A DNA stretch of 64,000 nucleotides. It comes from Pogonophryne albipinna (Eukaryota > Chordata > Actinopteri > Perciformes > Artedidraconidae). The position numbers and the translations under genes were made by a program. The stretch spans positions 12,907,112-12,971,111 of the forward strand of contig CM053253.1 in the NCBI GenBank assembly GCA_028583405.1, written 5' to 3'. The stretch's first letter is position 1; every line of letters starts with the position of its first letter. Positions 971-64,000 of this stretch are shown in pieces. The notes below the pieces were generated by a model, which was not told the DNA's origin, did no database searches, and saw only the letters and a list, made by a program, of their open reading frames with translations.

Positions 971-2364
971 TGTGTGGACACAGTTGCCATGGTGACAATG
1001 TGGTGGATGGGGAGACGGCAGGGAGTTGGCTGTTGAGACAGACTTGCGGGTGAGTGCGGGCCTGAGTGACAGCACAGTGCTGTGGCGTTGTGGCGGCGGC
1101 GGGAGCAGAGATGGTGGCGGCGGTGGCGGGGCGATCAGCTGGGCTGGCCGAGCGGCAACCATCACTTCAAAAGAGCTCATTTAAAACGCTTGGAGAAGAA
1201 TTAGTAGAGCTCCCCCGCACTTCTCACTGAATGAAACAAGGCTGCAAAATCTCTGACACATTCGAGGACTCAAACACAAACACTCACGCACAGAGACCTA
1301 AACAAACAAACACAATCACACATTTCTCTTTGAAAAAAATAATGATTGCACATGCACACAAACATGGCACACACGCATGCACACACACTAGCAATCACAC
1401 ACATTTCTCCACACCCCTGCTGTGACACACAATTAATATGCAAAGACACATATCCTGTATCCACAACAACTGTTGGTAATATCAACAGTGTTTTTGTCAG
1501 CTTTTGGGTGGGTGGTGACCAGCTTTGCCTATCACTGGGGGAGTAAGTACTGCCGCCTGAGGGAGTATTTGTGTGTCTGTAGCTGTCCGTGTGTGTCTGA
1601 AAGAGAAGGGGTGGGGGGTGCTTGTAGTAAGCTCAGACACTGAAGAATACAGAGAACACCCGGGGGTGTCGTGGGGGTGGTTCATGAAAGTGGTACAAAA
1701 AACATATCTACATATTCCAATCATCCCCTGAGAGTCAGAGATGAAAACTCTCCTGCTGTGAGCGCTCTTTGTGTGTGTGTGTGTGTGTGTGTTTTTTTTC
1801 TACACACATACTGTGCTGCCTCTGAACTTCATTGGCTGCAAAATATATTTTTAGTCCACATGTGGGAGTAATGTGTTTGAATGAAACGAGTAAGCTGGGT
1901 AGTTTCAGTCCCACCGCAGTGCTCATAGGTAATGACTAATTAGCGACAGCTATCAGAAAGCTAGTTTCTAACCTTCTTAAAGAAGTTCATAAAAGAGAGT
2001 CAATAGCTGATTTCTGGCCATCTGTCTGATGCTGCTGAATGTTTGTTTGCATGTCTGACTGGACTGACAGCTGGGTCTTAACCACAACTGACGCCAAGAC
2101 CTGGCAGACTGTTCTGTGTCCTCACTAAATCTGTCTTTTTTTCTGTCCCCTTCCTCCCTTTTACCTTCTCTATCTCCGTTTCTGTCCACTCTCATCCTCT
2201 CTCTAGGTGAGTGGCGCTTCAATCGGAAAGAATCAACAGTGATCTGACAGTGATGCTGTGTAGCAGCGTCCCTCTCTGTCTGCCCCCCTCATTCTCCCGT
2301 GAGGCCCATGTGACCTAACCTACACCCACACACAGGGGGCCCCCAGTGCCGCTGGAGCCCACCC
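1..2364. other. Upstream/5'UTR-intron region of the ataxin-1 family gene
   Basis: No protein-coding exon could be supported here. It is AT-rich at first, then holds TG/CA microsatellites (928-969, about 1770-1793, scattered CA around 1280-1400) and a GGC/GGT-rich patch at about 1085-1135. Pyrimidine-rich sequence ending in CTCTCTCTAG just before 2207 is a plausible 3' splice site for the exon that carries the ataxin start codon. In vertebrate ATXN1 genes the coding exons follow several non-coding 5' exons, so this region is probably the last 5'UTR intron. That is inference. Confidence 0.5.
928..969. repeat. (GT)n microsatellite
   Basis: Uninterrupted GT dinucleotide run of about 42 bp. The small open frames overlapping it on either strand are low-complexity artefacts. 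Confidence 0.95.
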
Positions 2365-4660
2365 ATGAATCCCAGCCCCGACCGCGGCAAAGAGTGCCTC
2401 CCTCCCAAAAAAAGGGAATCTCGGCAAGGATCGTCCGAACACAACACCCCTCTGGACGAGTTTAAAACCCCTGTGCCGCTCCGGAGTCGGTCCAGCACAG
2501 GGGGAGGGGAGGGGGGCAGGGAGGCCAGCGACAGGGAGCGAGCTCTGATCAACCCGAGCCCCCATCTCCTACATACTCCTCCACCCCTTCCTGCTCCAGC
2601 ACCAGGCCTCCCCCTGCCCCTACCATGGCATCTGGGCTACTCTCCCTCCATCTCCCTCCCCCTTTTCCCAGGGCAGATTGGAGAGAGGAGGGGCTCAGGG
2701 TCTCCCGCTTGGAGAGATGATCCTCTCTCCTCAGCCTTGCCCCACCACTCCAGGTGGCTCAGAGGGGAAGGCCCCCTCTCCTTGCCACCTTCCCCATCTT
2801 CTTCTGCCGCCTCCTCCTTCAAGACTCCCTACCCAGCCGATTCTAGAGAGATTTGGTCCTACATCAACAGTGGCCGGCGGGACAACAGCTCCCCTCTCTT
2901 CTCCCCCTCTTACTTGTTCAGCCAGCACTCTCTCTACCCTCAAGATCCAAGTTATACTGAAGCCAGACATAGATACCTGGGCAAGAGGCTCAATGGCCTA
3001 GAGGGGCCTGGCAGCAGGACTGCCTCAACCTCCAGGTCTCTGCTCTCAGGAGAGTATGGGAACGAGAGCAGCAGAGCCAGGCTGGACATGGGTCCACACA
3101 GCTCCCATACCAACGGTGGACGGAGACAGCAGGAGGATCTAACATCCCGTGTCCATACTGGAGGGCCTTATTTGTCAGACTCTCTAGCTCAGGAGGGCCC
3201 TGAGACACATTCCTCACTGCAGGACAGACATACACATGGGATAGTTAAGACCAGCTTACTCTCCTCCAGTCCCCATCCCCTGGGACCAGTCCCCAGGGCA
3301 GGTAGAGGGGGTCTCCTGGACTCCCTAGGGGTCACACCAGCTGAGGCCCAGATCTACTACTCCTTAGGATCGGTGGGCCACCCCAGCCCTCAGGTCCAGC
3401 CCTACCCGCTCTACAGCCCCTCAGGAACCGCTCTGTACAACCTGCACAGGGAGCCAGTACCCAGGCATCACAGTGTAAGGAACTCCCCTCACTCCCCCCT
3501 GGGTCTGCATAACAGCCATGACAGGTCACCAAGAGACCGGGACAGAGACCTAGAAAGAGACCGAGAAAAACTCCTACAAAGGGACAGGGAGCGAGGCAAA
3601 GACAAAGAAAAGCACCTTCAACATGACCAAGAAAGAGACAGAAGGGATAGAGAAAGAGGGAGAGAGTTATCTCCCTCTCATGCTCACACCTCGCCCCCGA
3701 CCCCTCACCCATCCCCACCCCCTGCGCTCCTACCTCACTTCACCAAGGGTTCTCTGATCGAGTTGGCCAGCGGCCGGTTGAAGCAGGTGGAGGAGCTGCG
3801 GACCGAAGACTTCCTGAGGAGCGCAGATACCTCCCCCGAGTTTCACCTCAGCACCTGCACTGTGCTGCTGATTTCCCCCAGCAGCACACAGGGCTTCAGC
3901 CACCTGCAGGTCCACCTCACAGACCGCAACACTCAGGTCAGCTTTATCCTAAAATATCTTCATTTTAGTAGCAGATATGTTTTTACCAGCACAATCAGAA
4001 AGAATTTCATAAAAAACTGCATGGAAAGATGATTGTTAATGTAGTGCAGTTGAGGCTGTAGATTACCCATCTTTAATCTAATTCCTAACACACCTTATTG
4101 CACACCAAAGTCACATTGAGGTGTTATTAACTTTCTGATTACAGACATTGAATCCCTCTTTGTTGAGTGTATAACATTGTTGTGCTTTTGTGTAGGAGCT
4201 ACTGAAGGTCTTGGTGGAGTATCCGTTCTTTGTGCAGGACCGAGGCTGGTCTTCTTGCTGCCCGCAGAGAACCTCACAGCTGTACGGCCTGCCCTGTCGC
4301 CAGCTCATGGAAGGCGATGTCTGCCTGGCTCTCACCCCCACCCCCACCCAAACCTACCGGACACGCACGCGTACTGGCTCCAGGGCCCATCGCACGCAAC
4401 TCCCCCCAAGGGCTGCAGGAGATCCCAGCAGCTTGCACAGGGAGGAGATGCCACCTCCACCTCCCCCTCCCCCTCTCCCTCACCACCCACCTCCTGCTGC
4501 ACCGGCCCCTCGGCGGGCGCTGGCTGCAGTCCCCCCTGCTCAGGAGCAGCAACGTCCGCGAAAACGGCGCTGGTCTGCCCCGGATACCCTACCCTCAACC
4601 GGCACTGATGAAAGCCTCATGGATTTACCTCATGGTTCCAAGCTAATGAAGTGGCAGTAG
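2365..4660 (+). CDS. atxn1: Ataxin-1 family protein (AXH domain transcriptional co-repressor)
   Basis: Two coding exons, 2365-3936 and 4196-4660, joined by a GT-AG intron, give 678 residues (1572 + 465 nt, frame closes). The N-terminus carries ECLPPKKRE, the ataxin-1 family signature. The middle is Pro/Ser-rich with an Arg/Asp/Glu-rich stretch (about residues 385-435). The AXH domain begins near residue 459 (FTKGSLIELASG) and crosses the intron to VEYPFFV, GWSSCC and TSQLYGLPC. Near residue 650 is RKRRWSAP, the nuclear-localisation / UHM-ligand / 14-3-3 motif that ATXN1 has and ATXN1L lacks. There is no polyglutamine tract, and the AXH-to-NLS linker is polyproline instead. Known family role: nuclear co-repressor that binds Capicua. 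Which teleost paralogue (a or b) this is cannot be decided here. It is convergent with irf10. Confidence 0.9.
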
Positions 4661-6314: not shown

Positions 6315-10453
<4,139 letters not shown>

Positions 10454-58273: not shown

Positions 58274-58700
58274 TGTTACAGGTTTAGCACAAGTTGGACC
58301 AACGCGCATTAAAACACAGGAGGCATCTATAAAAGTGTAGACAAAAAGTGAGCTTTATTAAATAAAGCTGATACAAAAATAACGGGGACCAGAACTAGGT
58401 CAAACAAAACAACAAAAACAAAGAAAACTTAAACAAGTACAGACCGGAGGACATGAGAGACAAGAGCGGGAACACAGGCAGGAACTCTGGGACACTGGCA
58501 GGAACATAGACAACAAACAGAGAGAACACTGGGGAAGACAGGCATATATACAAGACTAACCACAGATATAAGACACAGCTGGAGAGGGCAGGTGAAACAC
58601 AGGGGCAGCAGGTGAACACAATCATACAATCACACAGGCAGGAAAACAAAAGACAGGAAGACACAAGGAGAAAATACTTTACAAAAGAAAACAATCCAAT
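58274..58700 (-). mobile_element. Diverged solo LTR-like fragment
   Basis: On the minus strand it follows the same layout as the LTR at 61150-61577: TTGTGTTCACCTG, TGTGTTTC, CAGCTGTGTCTT, then TTTAATAAAGCTCACTTTTTG, ending in CTGTAACA. No partner LTR or internal region is visible. The start is not resolved; the Tc1 element begins nearby at 58714. Confidence 0.6.
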
Positions 58701-58713
58701 CCTACTTAATATA

Positions 58714-58998
58714 CACTGAACAAAAATATAAATGCAACACTTTTGTTTTTGCTCCCATTTTTCATGAGATGAACTCAAAGATCTAAAACATTTTCTATAT
58801 ACACAAAATAACCATTTCTCTCAAATATTGTTCACAAATCTGAAAAGATCTGTGATAGTGAGCACTTCTCCTTTGCCGAGATAATCCATCCCACCTCACA
58901 GGTGTGGCATATCAAGATGCTGATTAGACAGCATGATTATTGCACAGGTGTGCCTTAGGCTGGCCACAATAAAAGGCCACTCTGAAACGTGCAGTTTT
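58714..58998 (+). repeat. Tc1 left terminal inverted repeat (285 bp)
   Basis: Matches 60063-60347 in reverse complement, with a few differences (for example GAAAAGATCTG against the AAAAAATCTG equivalent). Confidence 0.93.
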
Positions 58999-59011
58999 AT
59001 CACACAGCACA

Positions 59012-60025
59012 ATGCCACAGATGTCGCAAGTTTTGAGGGAGCGTGCAATTGGCATGCTGACAGCAGGAATGTCCACCAGAGCTGTTGCCCGTGAATTGAA
59101 TGTTCATTTCTCTACCATAAGCCGTCTCCAAAGGCGTTTTAGAGAATTTGGCAGTACATCCAACCGGCCTCACAACCGCAGACCACGTGTAACCACACCA
59201 CCCCAGGACCTCCACATCCAGCATGTTCACCTCCAAGATCGTCTGAGACCAGCCACTCGGACAGCTGCTGCAACAATCGGTTTGCATAACCAAAGAATTT
59301 CTGCACAAACTGTCAGAAACCGTCTCAGGGAAGCTCATCTGCATGCTCGTCGTCCTCATCGGGGTCTCGACCTGACTCCGGTTCGTCGTCGTAACCGACT
59401 TGAGTGGGCAAATGCTCACATTCGATGGCGTCTGGCACGTTGGAGAGGTGTTCTCTTCACGGATGAATCCCGGTTTTCACTGTTCAGGGCAGATGGCAGA
59501 CAGCGTGTGTGGCGTCGTGTGGGTGAGCGGTTTTCTGATATCAATGTTGTGAATCGAGTGGCCCATGGTGGTGGTGGGGTTATGGTATGGGCAGGCGTAT
59601 GTTATGGACGACGAACACAGGTGCATTTTATTGATGGCATTGTGAATGCACAGAGATACCGTGACGAGATCCTGAGGCCCATTGTTGTGCCATTCATCCA
59701 CGACCATCACCTCATGTTGCAGCATGATAATGCACGGCCCCATGTTGCAAGGATCTGTACACAATTCCTGGAGGCTGAAAACATCCCAGTTCTTGCATGG
59801 CCAGCATACTGACCGGACATGTCACCCATTGAGCATGTTTGGGATGCTCTGGATCGGCGTATACGACAGCGTGTTCCAGTTCCTGCCAATATCCAGCAAC
59901 TTGGCACAGCCATTGAAGAGGAGTGGACCAACATTCCACAGGCCACAATCAACAACCTGATCAACTCTATGCGAAGGAGATGTGTTGCACTGCGTGAGGC
60001 AAATGGTGGTCACACCAGATACTGA
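59012..60025 (+). pseudogene. Tc1/mariner DD34E transposase with one internal stop
   Basis: The frame runs from MPQMSQVLRERAIGMLTAGM to GGHTRY and a stop at 60023-60025 (338 codons including the two stops). The N-terminal half has the paired helix-turn-helix DNA-binding domain (STRAVARELNVHFSTISRLQ). The catalytic triad is LFTDESRF, LQHDNARPH and SPIEHVWD, with 34 residues between the last two acidic positions. The only break is TGA at 59810-59812, between the second D and the E, so any product would lack the third catalytic residue. This copy is therefore probably inactive but could be mobilised in trans. Confidence 0.93.
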
Positions 60026-60800: not shown

Positions 60801-61149
60801 GGTTAACACAAGAAAACATAACACCAGGATCATGACAAATGTAAGTTAATCACTCTAACAACAAACATAATGACTTTTTATATAGCACTAGGTTTCAGTG
60901 CAACTACAGTTTCAATTCAATTATTACTACAATTACAACTAAACGCTAAAATCAGAAAATAAAATCATGTATTGTTTTATTGTATTATTAATTTATGTTG
61001 CATTTCTGGGTGGGTTGTCTTTCTGATGTGTTGCAAATGTGCATATTTTGTGTAAAAAAAGGGATGCACATTTCAAACATCTCATTTGAATAATCTTTCT
61101 TGACATCTCATGCTACAATAATCTTCAAGTATACAGTGAATGAGATAGC
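60801..61149. other. AT-rich intergenic DNA
   Basis: Nothing recognisable. The last five bases (ATAGC, 61145-61149) are the left target-site duplication of the following element. Confidence 0.7.
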
Positions 61150-61577
61150 TGTCACACTCCTAGGTTTATGTCACAGTTTTAGTGTTGTCTGTCTGATTAT
61201 GGGTTTTGTAAGTCTGGCCATTCGGTGTTTTGTCTTCCTCCTTGTGTTTTGTCTGGTCCTCCTCCCTGTCGTTAGTTTCCCTGGTGTGTCTGATTGTCTC
61301 ATTGTGTTCACCTGTTGCCCTTGTGTTTCTCCCTCCCCTGCCCAGCTGTGTCTTGTCCTGTGATTACCCTTCTGTGTATTTAGTCTAGTCTTCCCCTGTG
61401 TTCCATGTCGGTCCATTGTTTCCCCTCCATGTTTCCACGGTCTGTGTTCCTTGTGCTGCTCGTTTGTGTTTGGATATTTTTGGATACTGCCTTTTTGCCA
61501 CAGCTTTTATGATTTAATAAAGCTCGCTTTTTGTTAAATTCTGCATTTGGGTCCTACCTTTTCCACGCATCCTGACA
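61150..61577 (+). repeat. 5' LTR (428 bp)
   Basis: TG...CA ends. It contains TTTAATAAAGCTCGC as a poly(A) signal about 65 bp before the end. Confidence 0.95.
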
Positions 61578-61579
61578 GA

Positions 61580-63781
61580 ATGGATCGACCACAAATGGAC
61601 CCAGCAGATGATCCATTTGAGGTAGAATTACAGCATTTTACCTTTTATCTGGCTTGCTGCTTTGATTGGTGGAAGGGAGCGTCCAGTGTTCTGCAGAAGG
61701 GGGCCGCTCTGGTAGAGGCGCACCGGTTGGCTATGGAGAAACCAGGCTTGGTGAAATTTTTACCTGGCTGGATTTTGAACTTCCTCTGGGTGTGTGATTT
61801 CCAGCCTGCTGACTACAAACGTCTCGGTGTGTTCCGTCCGGAGTCAACCCCTGCTTCTTCCCCATGTCCTGCTCCTGTCCAGGAGCCGTTCTCTGGAACT
61901 CGTCTGGCTTTTGGAGGTCCACGAAGCCTCCAAATGGCTCCTAAAAGAAGGAGTCGCAAGGCCAGGCTAGCAGCCCAAGCCCCAAGAGCCATGGTTCCGG
62001 CCCAAGTTCTGTCCCCAGCAGCCATGGTCCCAGACCCAGTTCTGGCCCCAGCAGCCATGGTTCCAGCCCCAGTCCCGGTCCCAGCAACCATGGTTCCGGC
62101 CCCAGTTCCGGCCCCAGCAGCCATGGTTCCGGCTTCAGTGCCGGCCCCAGTAGCCATGGTCCTGTCGGCGTACCGGCCAACGCCAGCTCCCCGAGGCCTG
62201 TCGGTGTACCGGCCGACTCCAGCACCTCGTCTCCTGTTGGCTCTCCAGCCGACACCAGCTCCCCGTGTCCTGTCGGCGTACCGACCGACACAAGTCCCCT
62301 CTCAAGTCCCCTCTCAAGTCCCCTCTCAAGTCTCCTCTCGAGTTCCCTCTCGGGTCCCCTCTCAGGTCCCCTCTCGGGTCTCTTCTCGAGTCCCCTCTCA
62401 AGTCACCTCTCAAGTTCCTACCCGAGTCCCCTCTCAAGTTTCCCCTCAAGTCACCTCTCGAGTTCCCTCTCAAGCCCTCTCTCGAGTCCCCTCTCGAGTC
62501 CCCTCTCCAGTCACCTCTCGAGTTCTCTCTCAAGTCCCCTCTCGAGTTACCTCTCGAGTTCCCTCTCAAGCCCTCTCTCGAGTCCCCTCTCGAGTCCCCT
62601 CTCCAGTCACCTCTCGAGTTCTCTCTCAAGTCCCCTCTCGAGTTACCTCTCGAGTTCCCTCTCAAGCCCTCTCTCGAGTCCCCTCTCGAGTTCCCTCTCA
62701 AGCCCTCTCTCGAGTCCCCACTCAAGCCCCTACTCAAGTGCCGTTGGAGGTTCCGCTGGGGGTCCTGCCAACTCCATGTCCTGTCCCGTTGGGGGCCCCG
62801 CCGACTACTCTTCTGGCGGGGGTCCTGCCAACCCTATGTCCTGTGCCGTTGGAGGCCCCGCCGACTACTCTCCTGCCGGGAGTCCTGCCAACCCTATGTC
62901 CTGTCCCGTTGGGGGTCCCGCCGACTACTCTTCTGCCGGGGGTCCTGCCAACCCTATGTCCTGTGCCGTCGGAGGTCCCGCCGACTACTCTCCTGCCGGG
63001 GGTCCTGCCAACCCTATGTCCTTTTCCTCTGGGGGTCCCGCCATCACCTGTCTCGCCGGGGGTCCTGCCAACTCCTGGTCCTCTTCCGTGGGGGATCCTG
63101 CCGAAGCCTGTCCCACTGGCTCCGGTTCCTGTTCGGCCGACACCGGGTTCTGCCCGGCCTCCGGAGCTGTCTGGTCTTCGCCCTCGAGCCCGGCCCCCTG
63201 AGAGCCGCGGTCTTCGCCCTCGAGCCCGGCCCCCTGAGTGCCGTGGTCTTCGCCCTTGGGCCCGGCCCCCTGACTCTTCCTGCCGCTGCCTTCGCCCTCA
63301 TGCTCGGCCCCCTGAGTTCGCCCGCTGTGGCCTTCGCCCCTCCTTGGTCTCTGCCTTGCCCCCGGGCCGTCCGCCCGAGTTCCCCTCCTTGGTCTCTGCC
63401 TTGCCCCCGGGCCGTCTGCCCGAGACCCGTCCTCCAGACCCCCTCCACCCACCCTTTCTTGGCCCTAGTTATGTGTCCCTCCTCCGGTCCCCCTCCACCC
63501 ACCCTGCTGGACTTTTGTTTTTGTTTTTTTGGGACGTCTGGGATCCGTCCCTTGAGGGGGGGGGTTCTGTCACACTCCTAGGTTTATGTCACAGTTTTAG
63601 TGTTGTCTGTCTGGTTATGGGTTTTGTAAGTCTGTTCATTCGGTGTTTTGTCTTCCTCCTTGTGTTTTGTCTGGTCCTCCTCCCTGTCGTTAGTTTCCCT
63701 GGTGTGTCTGATTGTCTCATTGTGTTCACCTGTTGCCCTTGTGTTTCTCCCTCCCCTGCCCAGCTGTGTCTTGTCCTGTGA
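61580..63781 (+). CDS. Long repeat-rich ORF of the LTR element, function unknown
   Basis: 733 codons from the first ATG after the 5' LTR, ending inside the 3' LTR. Residues 1-85 are non-repetitive (MDRPQMDPADDPFEVELQHF, then FYLACCFDWWKG and PGWILNFLWVCDFQPADYK) and could be a small globular domain. The rest is a stack of tandem arrays: about five 11-residue units (AMVPAPVPAPA), four 12-residue units (LSAYRPTPAPRG), about 38 tetrapeptides (R/Q-V-P-S), six 20-residue units (PTLCPVPLGVPPTTLLPGVL), and 11-12-residue GLRPRARPPE units. It is extremely Pro/Val/Ser-rich with no zinc knuckle or recognised Gag motif. I do not recognise the family. Two other frames are also open across the arrays, but only this one covers the unique 5' part. 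Confidence 0.55.
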   Translation: MDRPQMDPADDPFEVELQHFTFYLACCFDWWKGASSVLQKGAALVEAHRLAMEKPGLVKFLPGWILNFLWVCDFQPADYKRLGVFRPESTPASSPCPAPVQEPFSGTRLAFGGPRSLQMAPKRRSRKARLAAQAPRAMVPAQVLSPAAMVPDPVLAPAAMVPAPVPVPATMVPAPVPAPAAMVPASVPAPVAMVLSAYRPTPAPRGLSVYRPTPAPRLLLALQPTPAPRVLSAYRPTQVPSQVPSQVPSQVSSRVPSRVPSQVPSRVSSRVPSQVTSQVPTRVPSQVSPQVTSRVPSQALSRVPSRVPSPVTSRVLSQVPSRVTSRVPSQALSRVPSRVPSPVTSRVLSQVPSRVTSRVPSQALSRVPSRVPSQALSRVPTQAPTQVPLEVPLGVLPTPCPVPLGAPPTTLLAGVLPTLCPVPLEAPPTTLLPGVLPTLCPVPLGVPPTTLLPGVLPTLCPVPSEVPPTTLLPGVLPTLCPFPLGVPPSPVSPGVLPTPGPLPWGILPKPVPLAPVPVRPTPGSARPPELSGLRPRARPPESRGLRPRARPPECRGLRPWARPPDSSCRCLRPHARPPEFARCGLRPSLVSALPPGRPPEFPSLVSALPPGRLPETRPPDPLHPPFLGPSYVSLLRSPSTHPAGLLFLFFWDVWDPSLEGGGSVTLLGLCHSFSVVCLVMGFVSLFIRCFVFLLVFCLVLLPVVSFPGVSDCLIVFTCCPCVSPSPAQLCLVL
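62289..62745 (+). repeat. 12-bp minisatellite (CAAGTCCCCTCT type) with 96-bp higher-order repeat
   Basis: About 38 units of CAAGTCCCCTCT / CGAGTCCCCTCT, each coding one tetrapeptide. A 96-bp block (8 units) starting at 62459 is repeated almost exactly from 62555. Many units create CTCGAG at the unit junction. Confidence 0.9.
62759..63118 (+). repeat. 60-bp tandem array, six units
   Basis: Units of exactly 60 bp starting GGGGTCCTGCCAACCCTATG, the last two more diverged. Each encodes 20 residues in the ORF frame. Adjacent units with no spacers rule out a CRISPR reading. Confidence 0.92.
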
Positions 63782-63995
63782 TTACCCTTCTGTGTATTTA
63801 GTCTAGTCTTCCCCTGTGTTCCATGTCGGTCCATTGTTTCCCCTCCATGTTTCCACGGTCTGTGTTCCTTGTGCTGCTCGTTTGTTTTTGGATATTTTTG
63901 GATACTGCCTTTTTGCCACAGCTTTTATGATTTAATAAAGCTCTCTTTTTGTTAAATTCTGCATTTGGGTCCTACCTTTTCCACGCATCCTGACA
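63568..63995 (+). repeat. 3' LTR (428 bp)
   Basis: Same length as the 5' LTR. By-eye differences are at five positions (for example CTGATTAT/CTGGTTAT, TCTGGCCATT/TCTGTTCATT, AAGCTCGC/AAGCTCTC). Confidence 0.95.
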
Positions 63996-64000
63996 ATAGC

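Follow-up and report, generated by a model that had tools for sequence, protein, structure and literature searches.

Near the end of the window, as we call the whole 64,000-nucleotide stretch of DNA analysed here, lies an LTR element of 2846 bp whose interior is a single long reading frame built largely of tandem repeats. The element has no retrotransposon enzymes, so that it would have to be mobilised in trans, and its occurrence raises the question of how such an element replicates and whether the protein that it appears to encode takes part. Our analysis indicates that it is probably a non-autonomous LTR retrotransposon that carries the cis-acting signals of the Tf1/sushi group (Ty3/gypsy) and codes for a single protein of its own.

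Structure of the element

The textbook LTR frame described in the first-pass annotation was fully re-found (Table 1). The two LTRs are 428 bp long, run from TG to CA and differ by 5 substitutions (98.8% identity), which supports the earlier view of a young element; they are flanked by the ATAGC duplication, and a G-rich tract, the putative polypurine tract, stands directly 5' of position 63568. What defines a non-autonomous LTR retrotransposon is thus all present, namely two LTRs, a target-site duplication, a priming site and a polypurine tract in the absence of enzymes. The LTR ends, TGTCACA...CCTGACA, match the published sushi motif TGTYANR...CNTNACA (PMC3601003).

Table 1. Features of the element in the window
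Feature	Position	Strand	Basis or remark
5' target-site duplication ATAGC	61145..61149	+	sequence comparison
5' LTR, TGTCACA...CCTGACA	61150..61577	+	423/428 same as 3' LTR
TATA-like box TGTATTTAG	61375..61383	+	about 30 nt 5' of the priming 11-mer; presumed promoter role
Presumed RNA 5' end and self-primer GTCGGTCCATT	61407..61417	+	covaries with 61579-61589 across subfamilies; presumed start
U5 motif TTTGGGTCC	61546..61554	+	TGGGTCC pairs with GGACCCA at 61597-61603
Self-priming primer-binding site AATGGATCGAC	61579..61589	+	one G.U pair with 61407-61417
ORF, 733 codons, start ATG 61580, stop within 3' LTR	61580..63781	+	
Head region, 92 codons	61580..61855	+	genome search, structure prediction
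Conserved motif PFSGTRLAFGGPRSLQ...RKARLAA, after head	61886..61975	+	comparison of head types
33-bp tandem array, AMVPAPVPAPA type	61979..62160	+	
36-bp tandem array, VLSAYRPTPAPR type	62159..62299	+	
12-bp based tandem array, SRVPSQVP type	about 62291..62739	+	
60-bp tandem array	62751..63104	+	
36-bp tandem array (second)	63152..63273	+	
45-bp repeat, two copies	63337..63424	+	
Polypurine tract region GAGGGGGGGGGTTC	63554..63567	+	putative role, from position
3' LTR	63568..63995	+	self-comparison
3' target-site duplication ATAGC	63996..64000	+	sequence comparison

The interior had been read as one ORF in which a head is followed by in-frame arrays, and this was confirmed; proline-rich arrays of 33, 36, 12-based, 60, 36 and 45 bp make up most of its length. 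Comparison of the ORF with Pfam gave 0 families at E ≤ 1, with no Gag, protease, reverse transcriptase, integrase or chromodomain found, which bears out the earlier statement that enzymes are absent. Structure prediction places four helices in residues 12-74 of the head, with a block-mean pLDDT of 91-95 over residues 11-70.

Elsewhere in the window, positions 58341-58660 (minus strand) hold a relic of a related LTR, which is 77% identical to the element LTR over 143 bp and includes a further 43-bp piece; the relic adjoins a Tc1/mariner-like transposase frame at 58973-59809 (plus strand). Probable host-gene exons lie at 2314-4029 (plus strand) and 7210-7674 (minus strand), with an AXH domain (the ataxin-1/HBP1 module) and an IRF-3 domain.

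Proposed self-priming signals in the leader and U5

In the window, the primer site that follows the 5' LTR pairs at 11/11 positions, including one G.U, with an LTR 11-mer that begins at 61407, about 30 nt downstream of TATTTAG. The leader of the window element is AATGGATCGAC, that of most copies sharing its LTR is AATGGACCGAC, and the partner is GTCGGTCCATT; other subfamilies pair AATGAACCGAC with GTCGGTTCATT or AATGAACCAAC with GTTGGTTCATT. We surveyed this pairing at 44 loci with a recognised leader, namely 35 elements with a head, counting that of the window, plus 9 leaders of sushi Gags; duplicates of the window or of other stretches were dropped, the ten short reads L064-L073 were excluded, and L041, L046, L048 and L054, the leaders of which the pattern did not recognise, lie outside the survey. 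The best LTR 11-mer, scored by Watson-Crick pairs, matched at 11/11 positions in 28 of the 44 loci, at 10/11 in 11, at 9 in 2, at 8 in 2 and at 7 in 1. Values of 7 or 8, obtained for L043, L050 and L053, are near chance because the partner is the best 11-mer out of about 400; for L050 inspection by eye makes it likely that the true partner lies beyond the scanned stretch. Among the 41 loci with at least 9 positions paired, an element's own pairs averaged 10.6, against a mean of 7.7 for cross pairs between elements with different primer sites, of which 14 of 1312 reached 11.

A second complementarity joins U5 to the start of the ORF ("MDPAD") and is formed at 7/7 positions in 38 of the 44 leaders and at 6/7 in the other 6. 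In sushi leaders with the Gag start MNP it shows a compensatory switch, from GGACCCA/TGGGTCC to TGAACCC/GGGTTCA. The RNA folds computed at three lengths (204, 234 and 294 nt) each gave a different result, and none contained both pairings together. At 204 nt the primer pairs with the ORF start, a sequence similar to the primer site; at 234 nt it pairs with the primer site itself at 9/11 positions; and at 294 nt it pairs with neither, the primer site being left out, and here alone U5 pairs with the ORF start. The covariation tracks the primer site, the ORF start being constant while the primer site changes.

Tf1 requires a U5/inverted-repeat stem beside its primer-binding site. Judged from sequence, the window element would have a primer-binding site complementary to its own presumed RNA 5' end, and the leader and U5 pairings are best described as putative self-priming signals of the Tf1/sushi type. 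Self-priming of Tf1/sushi elements is published (PMC6317226, PMC4600332). In some sushi Gags the "MDPAD" start could reflect a constraint on the RNA besides one on the protein.

A family with exchanged heads and LTRs

The 1.07-Gb genome was searched with the LTR and with the head. The LTR search yielded 2527 candidates, the best 40 of which were scored, and we examined 20 stretches covering 26 of these 40 places: array or tail sequence of the element is present in 15, a piece of the head in 1 and nothing but the LTR in 4. The first-pass annotation had allowed that no other copy might exist. Eight other insertions with two full LTRs were found (L009-L014, L018 and L023), with LTR-pair identities of 97.4-99.3%, a 5-bp target-site duplication at all 8 of these measured copies and the array classes of the window element. 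Relatives of the head, which had been taken to be unique to the element, occupy all 150 scored places (the best 150 of 1758 candidates), each with E below 1e-39.

Nine head places, among them G000:C10:11446599, C2:33952913 and C13:19597095, are equal in score and in identity (88%, E 2.3e-52) and lie in frames of 618-793 codons, which suggests a recent burst of one subfamily. L025 and L026 are opposite-strand copies on one small contig (G000:C301); the identical truncation of their 5' LTRs would fit a palindromic duplication or a fold-back in the assembly. The 20 stretches contain 15 mainly non-repetitive ORFs of at least 200 codons, 10 of which were compared with Pfam. A reverse transcriptase piece was matched in L009, on the strand opposite to the element, a LINE-type endonuclease in L028 and a phage-integrase-like domain in L024, and the remaining tested ORFs gave no domain or host-like domains. 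Among the titles and abstract openings covered, mainly those of openly accessible papers, none describes this family.

Heads and LTRs do not always travel together. At eleven loci (L009-L014, L016, L018, L020, L021 and L023) the LTRs are 94-98% identical to that of the window, and the first 300 nt of the window head find no nucleotide match; in most of these loci the post-head motif is nevertheless matched, at about 75%. At L016, for example, the LTR is 98.1% identical and none of the 300 nt is matched. L032 presents the reverse, a head identical to the window's over all 300 nt (100%) beside a different LTR that matches in two pieces at about 82%. By eye there are about five head types, which share a helical pattern and the post-head motif PFSGTRLAFGGPRSLQ; those outside the window clade are 35-56% identical to the window's head in an alignment that includes the post-head motif. 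Since such divergent types share one pattern, the head would be old within the family. Template switching between co-packaged RNAs would be a simple explanation of the mosaics, and gene conversion could also produce them.

Sushi elements as candidate helpers

We searched the genome with a fish sushi Gag query and scored the best 120 of 1936 candidates. By eye, the open frames at 20 of these 120 Gag places are each exactly 1461 codons long. In one of these frames a 400-codon piece was examined; it is free of stops and contains an RVT_1 domain (2e-38), and from their length the other 19 would also contain pol. Both complementarities described above are present in the leaders of L055 and L056, which belong to 1461-codon frames, and of L057, which precedes a 349-codon frame. 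These three leaders are nearly identical, and their LTRs include a tandem GGATTACTCTCCAGT repeat that is one unit shorter in L056. The proposal that the element is mobilised in trans is therefore supported by candidate helpers that have long open frames and, in the one piece tested, RVT_1.

The partner that had been anticipated, an autonomous element with the window's LTR, was not found in the genome searches. The LTRs of five sushi leaders that we compared do not align with the window LTR, nor do those of a further set of Gag places, and in aligned copies the LTR of the 1461-codon family starts with TGTGGTG, which is off the sushi motif and unlike the TGTCACA of the window. With a leader pattern designed to favour a Gag start, 14 of the 14 leaders found carry heads; an MNP-type leader pattern gave 1 place.

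Origin and coding status of the reading frame

The element might be a deletion derivative of an autonomous sushi element, the head being an N-terminal extension of Gag and the arrays having grown later in an ORF that is mostly a passenger. We regard this as possible, though doubtful. It draws on P0019, a protein encoded on a 1369-bp contig of other origin, in which the start of the first array, preceded by a related head and the GSRLALGGPRSLQ motif, is joined in frame to a sushi-type Gag with recognisable domains (Retrotrans_gag, 7e-16; Ty3_capsid, 6e-7). Ordinary sushi Gags in this genome also follow the same kind of leader, some of the nine that we inspected starting with MDPAD, MDQAD or MNP. 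However, P0019 is the sole fusion of this kind among the matches of two head searches (about 8000 candidates scored in each), and its joint falls within the first array, with the sushi Gag kept from the QHA(I/L) segment onward, as expected of a recombinant. In this genome, among the best 124 of 3511 Gag candidates, a single alignment entered a head and was rejected on its DNA. The first-pass annotation had named a remnant of an element whose gag contains the head as the finding that would overturn its reading; P0019 provides such a fusion, whereas none was confirmed among the 124 scored Gag places. P0019 could stand for a former Gag extension by the head, for recombination of two kinds of RNA or for a chimeric contig, and the position of its joint inside the array slightly favours recombination.

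The periods of the arrays also speak against a passenger ORF. Of 80 non-overlapping arrays in 13 element interiors, 74 have a period that is a multiple of 3, compared with 13 of 32 outside, the copies sharing ancestry and hence not being independent counts. The 12-bp based array, compared in the window, L012 and L016, varies in length from about 450 bp in the window to about 1330 bp in L012, and its period remains divisible by 3.

The same bias bears on a second alternative, in which G+C-rich minisatellite arrays gave rise to the ORF by chance and the element is a non-coding LTR derivative. The second forward frame of the arrays is likewise open, for 438 aa, so that ORF length by itself says little for coding, and many copies have a broken frame. 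The signal of selection on the head is consistent with this alternative as well. Comparisons of different head types give a dN/dS of 0.26-0.65, dS approaching saturation in the most distant pairs; in the clade of the window's head, 8 comparisons yield omega values of 0.35-1.02, none of them significant, and the range over a longer stretch is 0.22-1.10; near-identical head pairs lie on either side of 1, and pooling 19 close heads gives 0.65. From these comparisons, any selection on the head appears weak. Against a chance origin, 129 of 150 scored head places are free of stops, a count made by eye and biased in that these are the best-scoring places, and divergent head types retain both the helical pattern and a few invariant residues. 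Together with the preference for periods of 3, this makes a chance ORF unlikely in our judgement.

That the head is a captured fragment of a host gene spread by the element, as had also been proposed, is highly improbable: the head has no Pfam match and is joined to host-like sequence in P0103, but no clear host homologue is among the matches listed in the two protein searches with the head. The named matches, from notothenioid and other perch-like fish, are gene models, either uncharacterised or chimeric, that are element-like or run into such sequence. The age of the head within the family also speaks against capture. P0103 is a gene model of Notothenia coriiceps with a predicted protein, the host-like part of which presumably resembles the UNC5 netrin receptor, and represents either exonisation or an annotation error.

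A proposed model of replication

We return to the reading of a non-autonomous element that uses Tf1/sushi-type signals and encodes its own protein. Transcription would start at the LTR 11-mer, and the RNA would be packaged into particles of those sushi elements whose long frames are still open. Reverse transcription would be primed by the folded-back 5' end of the RNA itself, template switching between co-packaged RNAs could swap heads and LTRs, and the partner's integrase would generate the duplication of 5 bp. For the protein, the most likely role is in replication of the element itself. That the head docks it to the partner's Gag is a guess to which we give limited credence. As a tentative proposal, the element may be a retrotransposon satellite, a self-primed sushi-type element in which an in-frame head-plus-repeat protein, reshuffled among subfamilies, hijacks or modifies the particles of autonomous sushi elements.

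The family retains self-priming signals and a reading frame that has survived repeat expansion, and its heads stand on different LTR backbones. It could therefore provide a natural test of whether a retrotransposon parasite supplies a packaging or hijacking factor of its own, and of how frequently co-packaged retrotransposon RNAs recombine in a vertebrate.

Comparison with known systems

Non-autonomous LTR elements are usually viewed as passive RNAs, and LARDs, which have LTRs without enzymes, have non-coding interiors. LTRs without enzymes are also found in Cassandra (PMC7215508) and in TRIMs, which share the priming site and polypurine tract with the window element; TRIMs are shorter than 1 kb and have a short interior (PMC6934838), whereas the window element is 2846 bp long with a frame-keeping ORF of about 2 kb. 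The plant TR-GAG elements are closer in being non-autonomous LTR elements with a single ORF, for which transposition has been observed, but their ORF is a Gag (PMC8704663), and that of the window element is not recognisable as such. Zebrafish BHIKHARI-1 and BHIKHARI-2 (crestin) are, like it, recently active fish LTR elements with one long ORF; that ORF is a lokiretrovirus Gag with coiled-coil and capsid domains (PMC10996621), and no capsid domain was found in the window element.

The nearest likeness is to the Tf1/sushi elements themselves (sushi-ichi and Tf1), with which the element shares, at the level of sequence, the self-priming pair, the complementarity of U5 with the ORF start, the motif of the LTR ends and, for some Gags, the MDPAD start. 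It differs from them in carrying a head plus tandem-array ORF in place of Gag, protease, reverse transcriptase, integrase and chromodomain. Since no pol of the chromovirus lineage was found in its ORF, we consider the element a user of sushi-type signals rather than a member of the sushi group.
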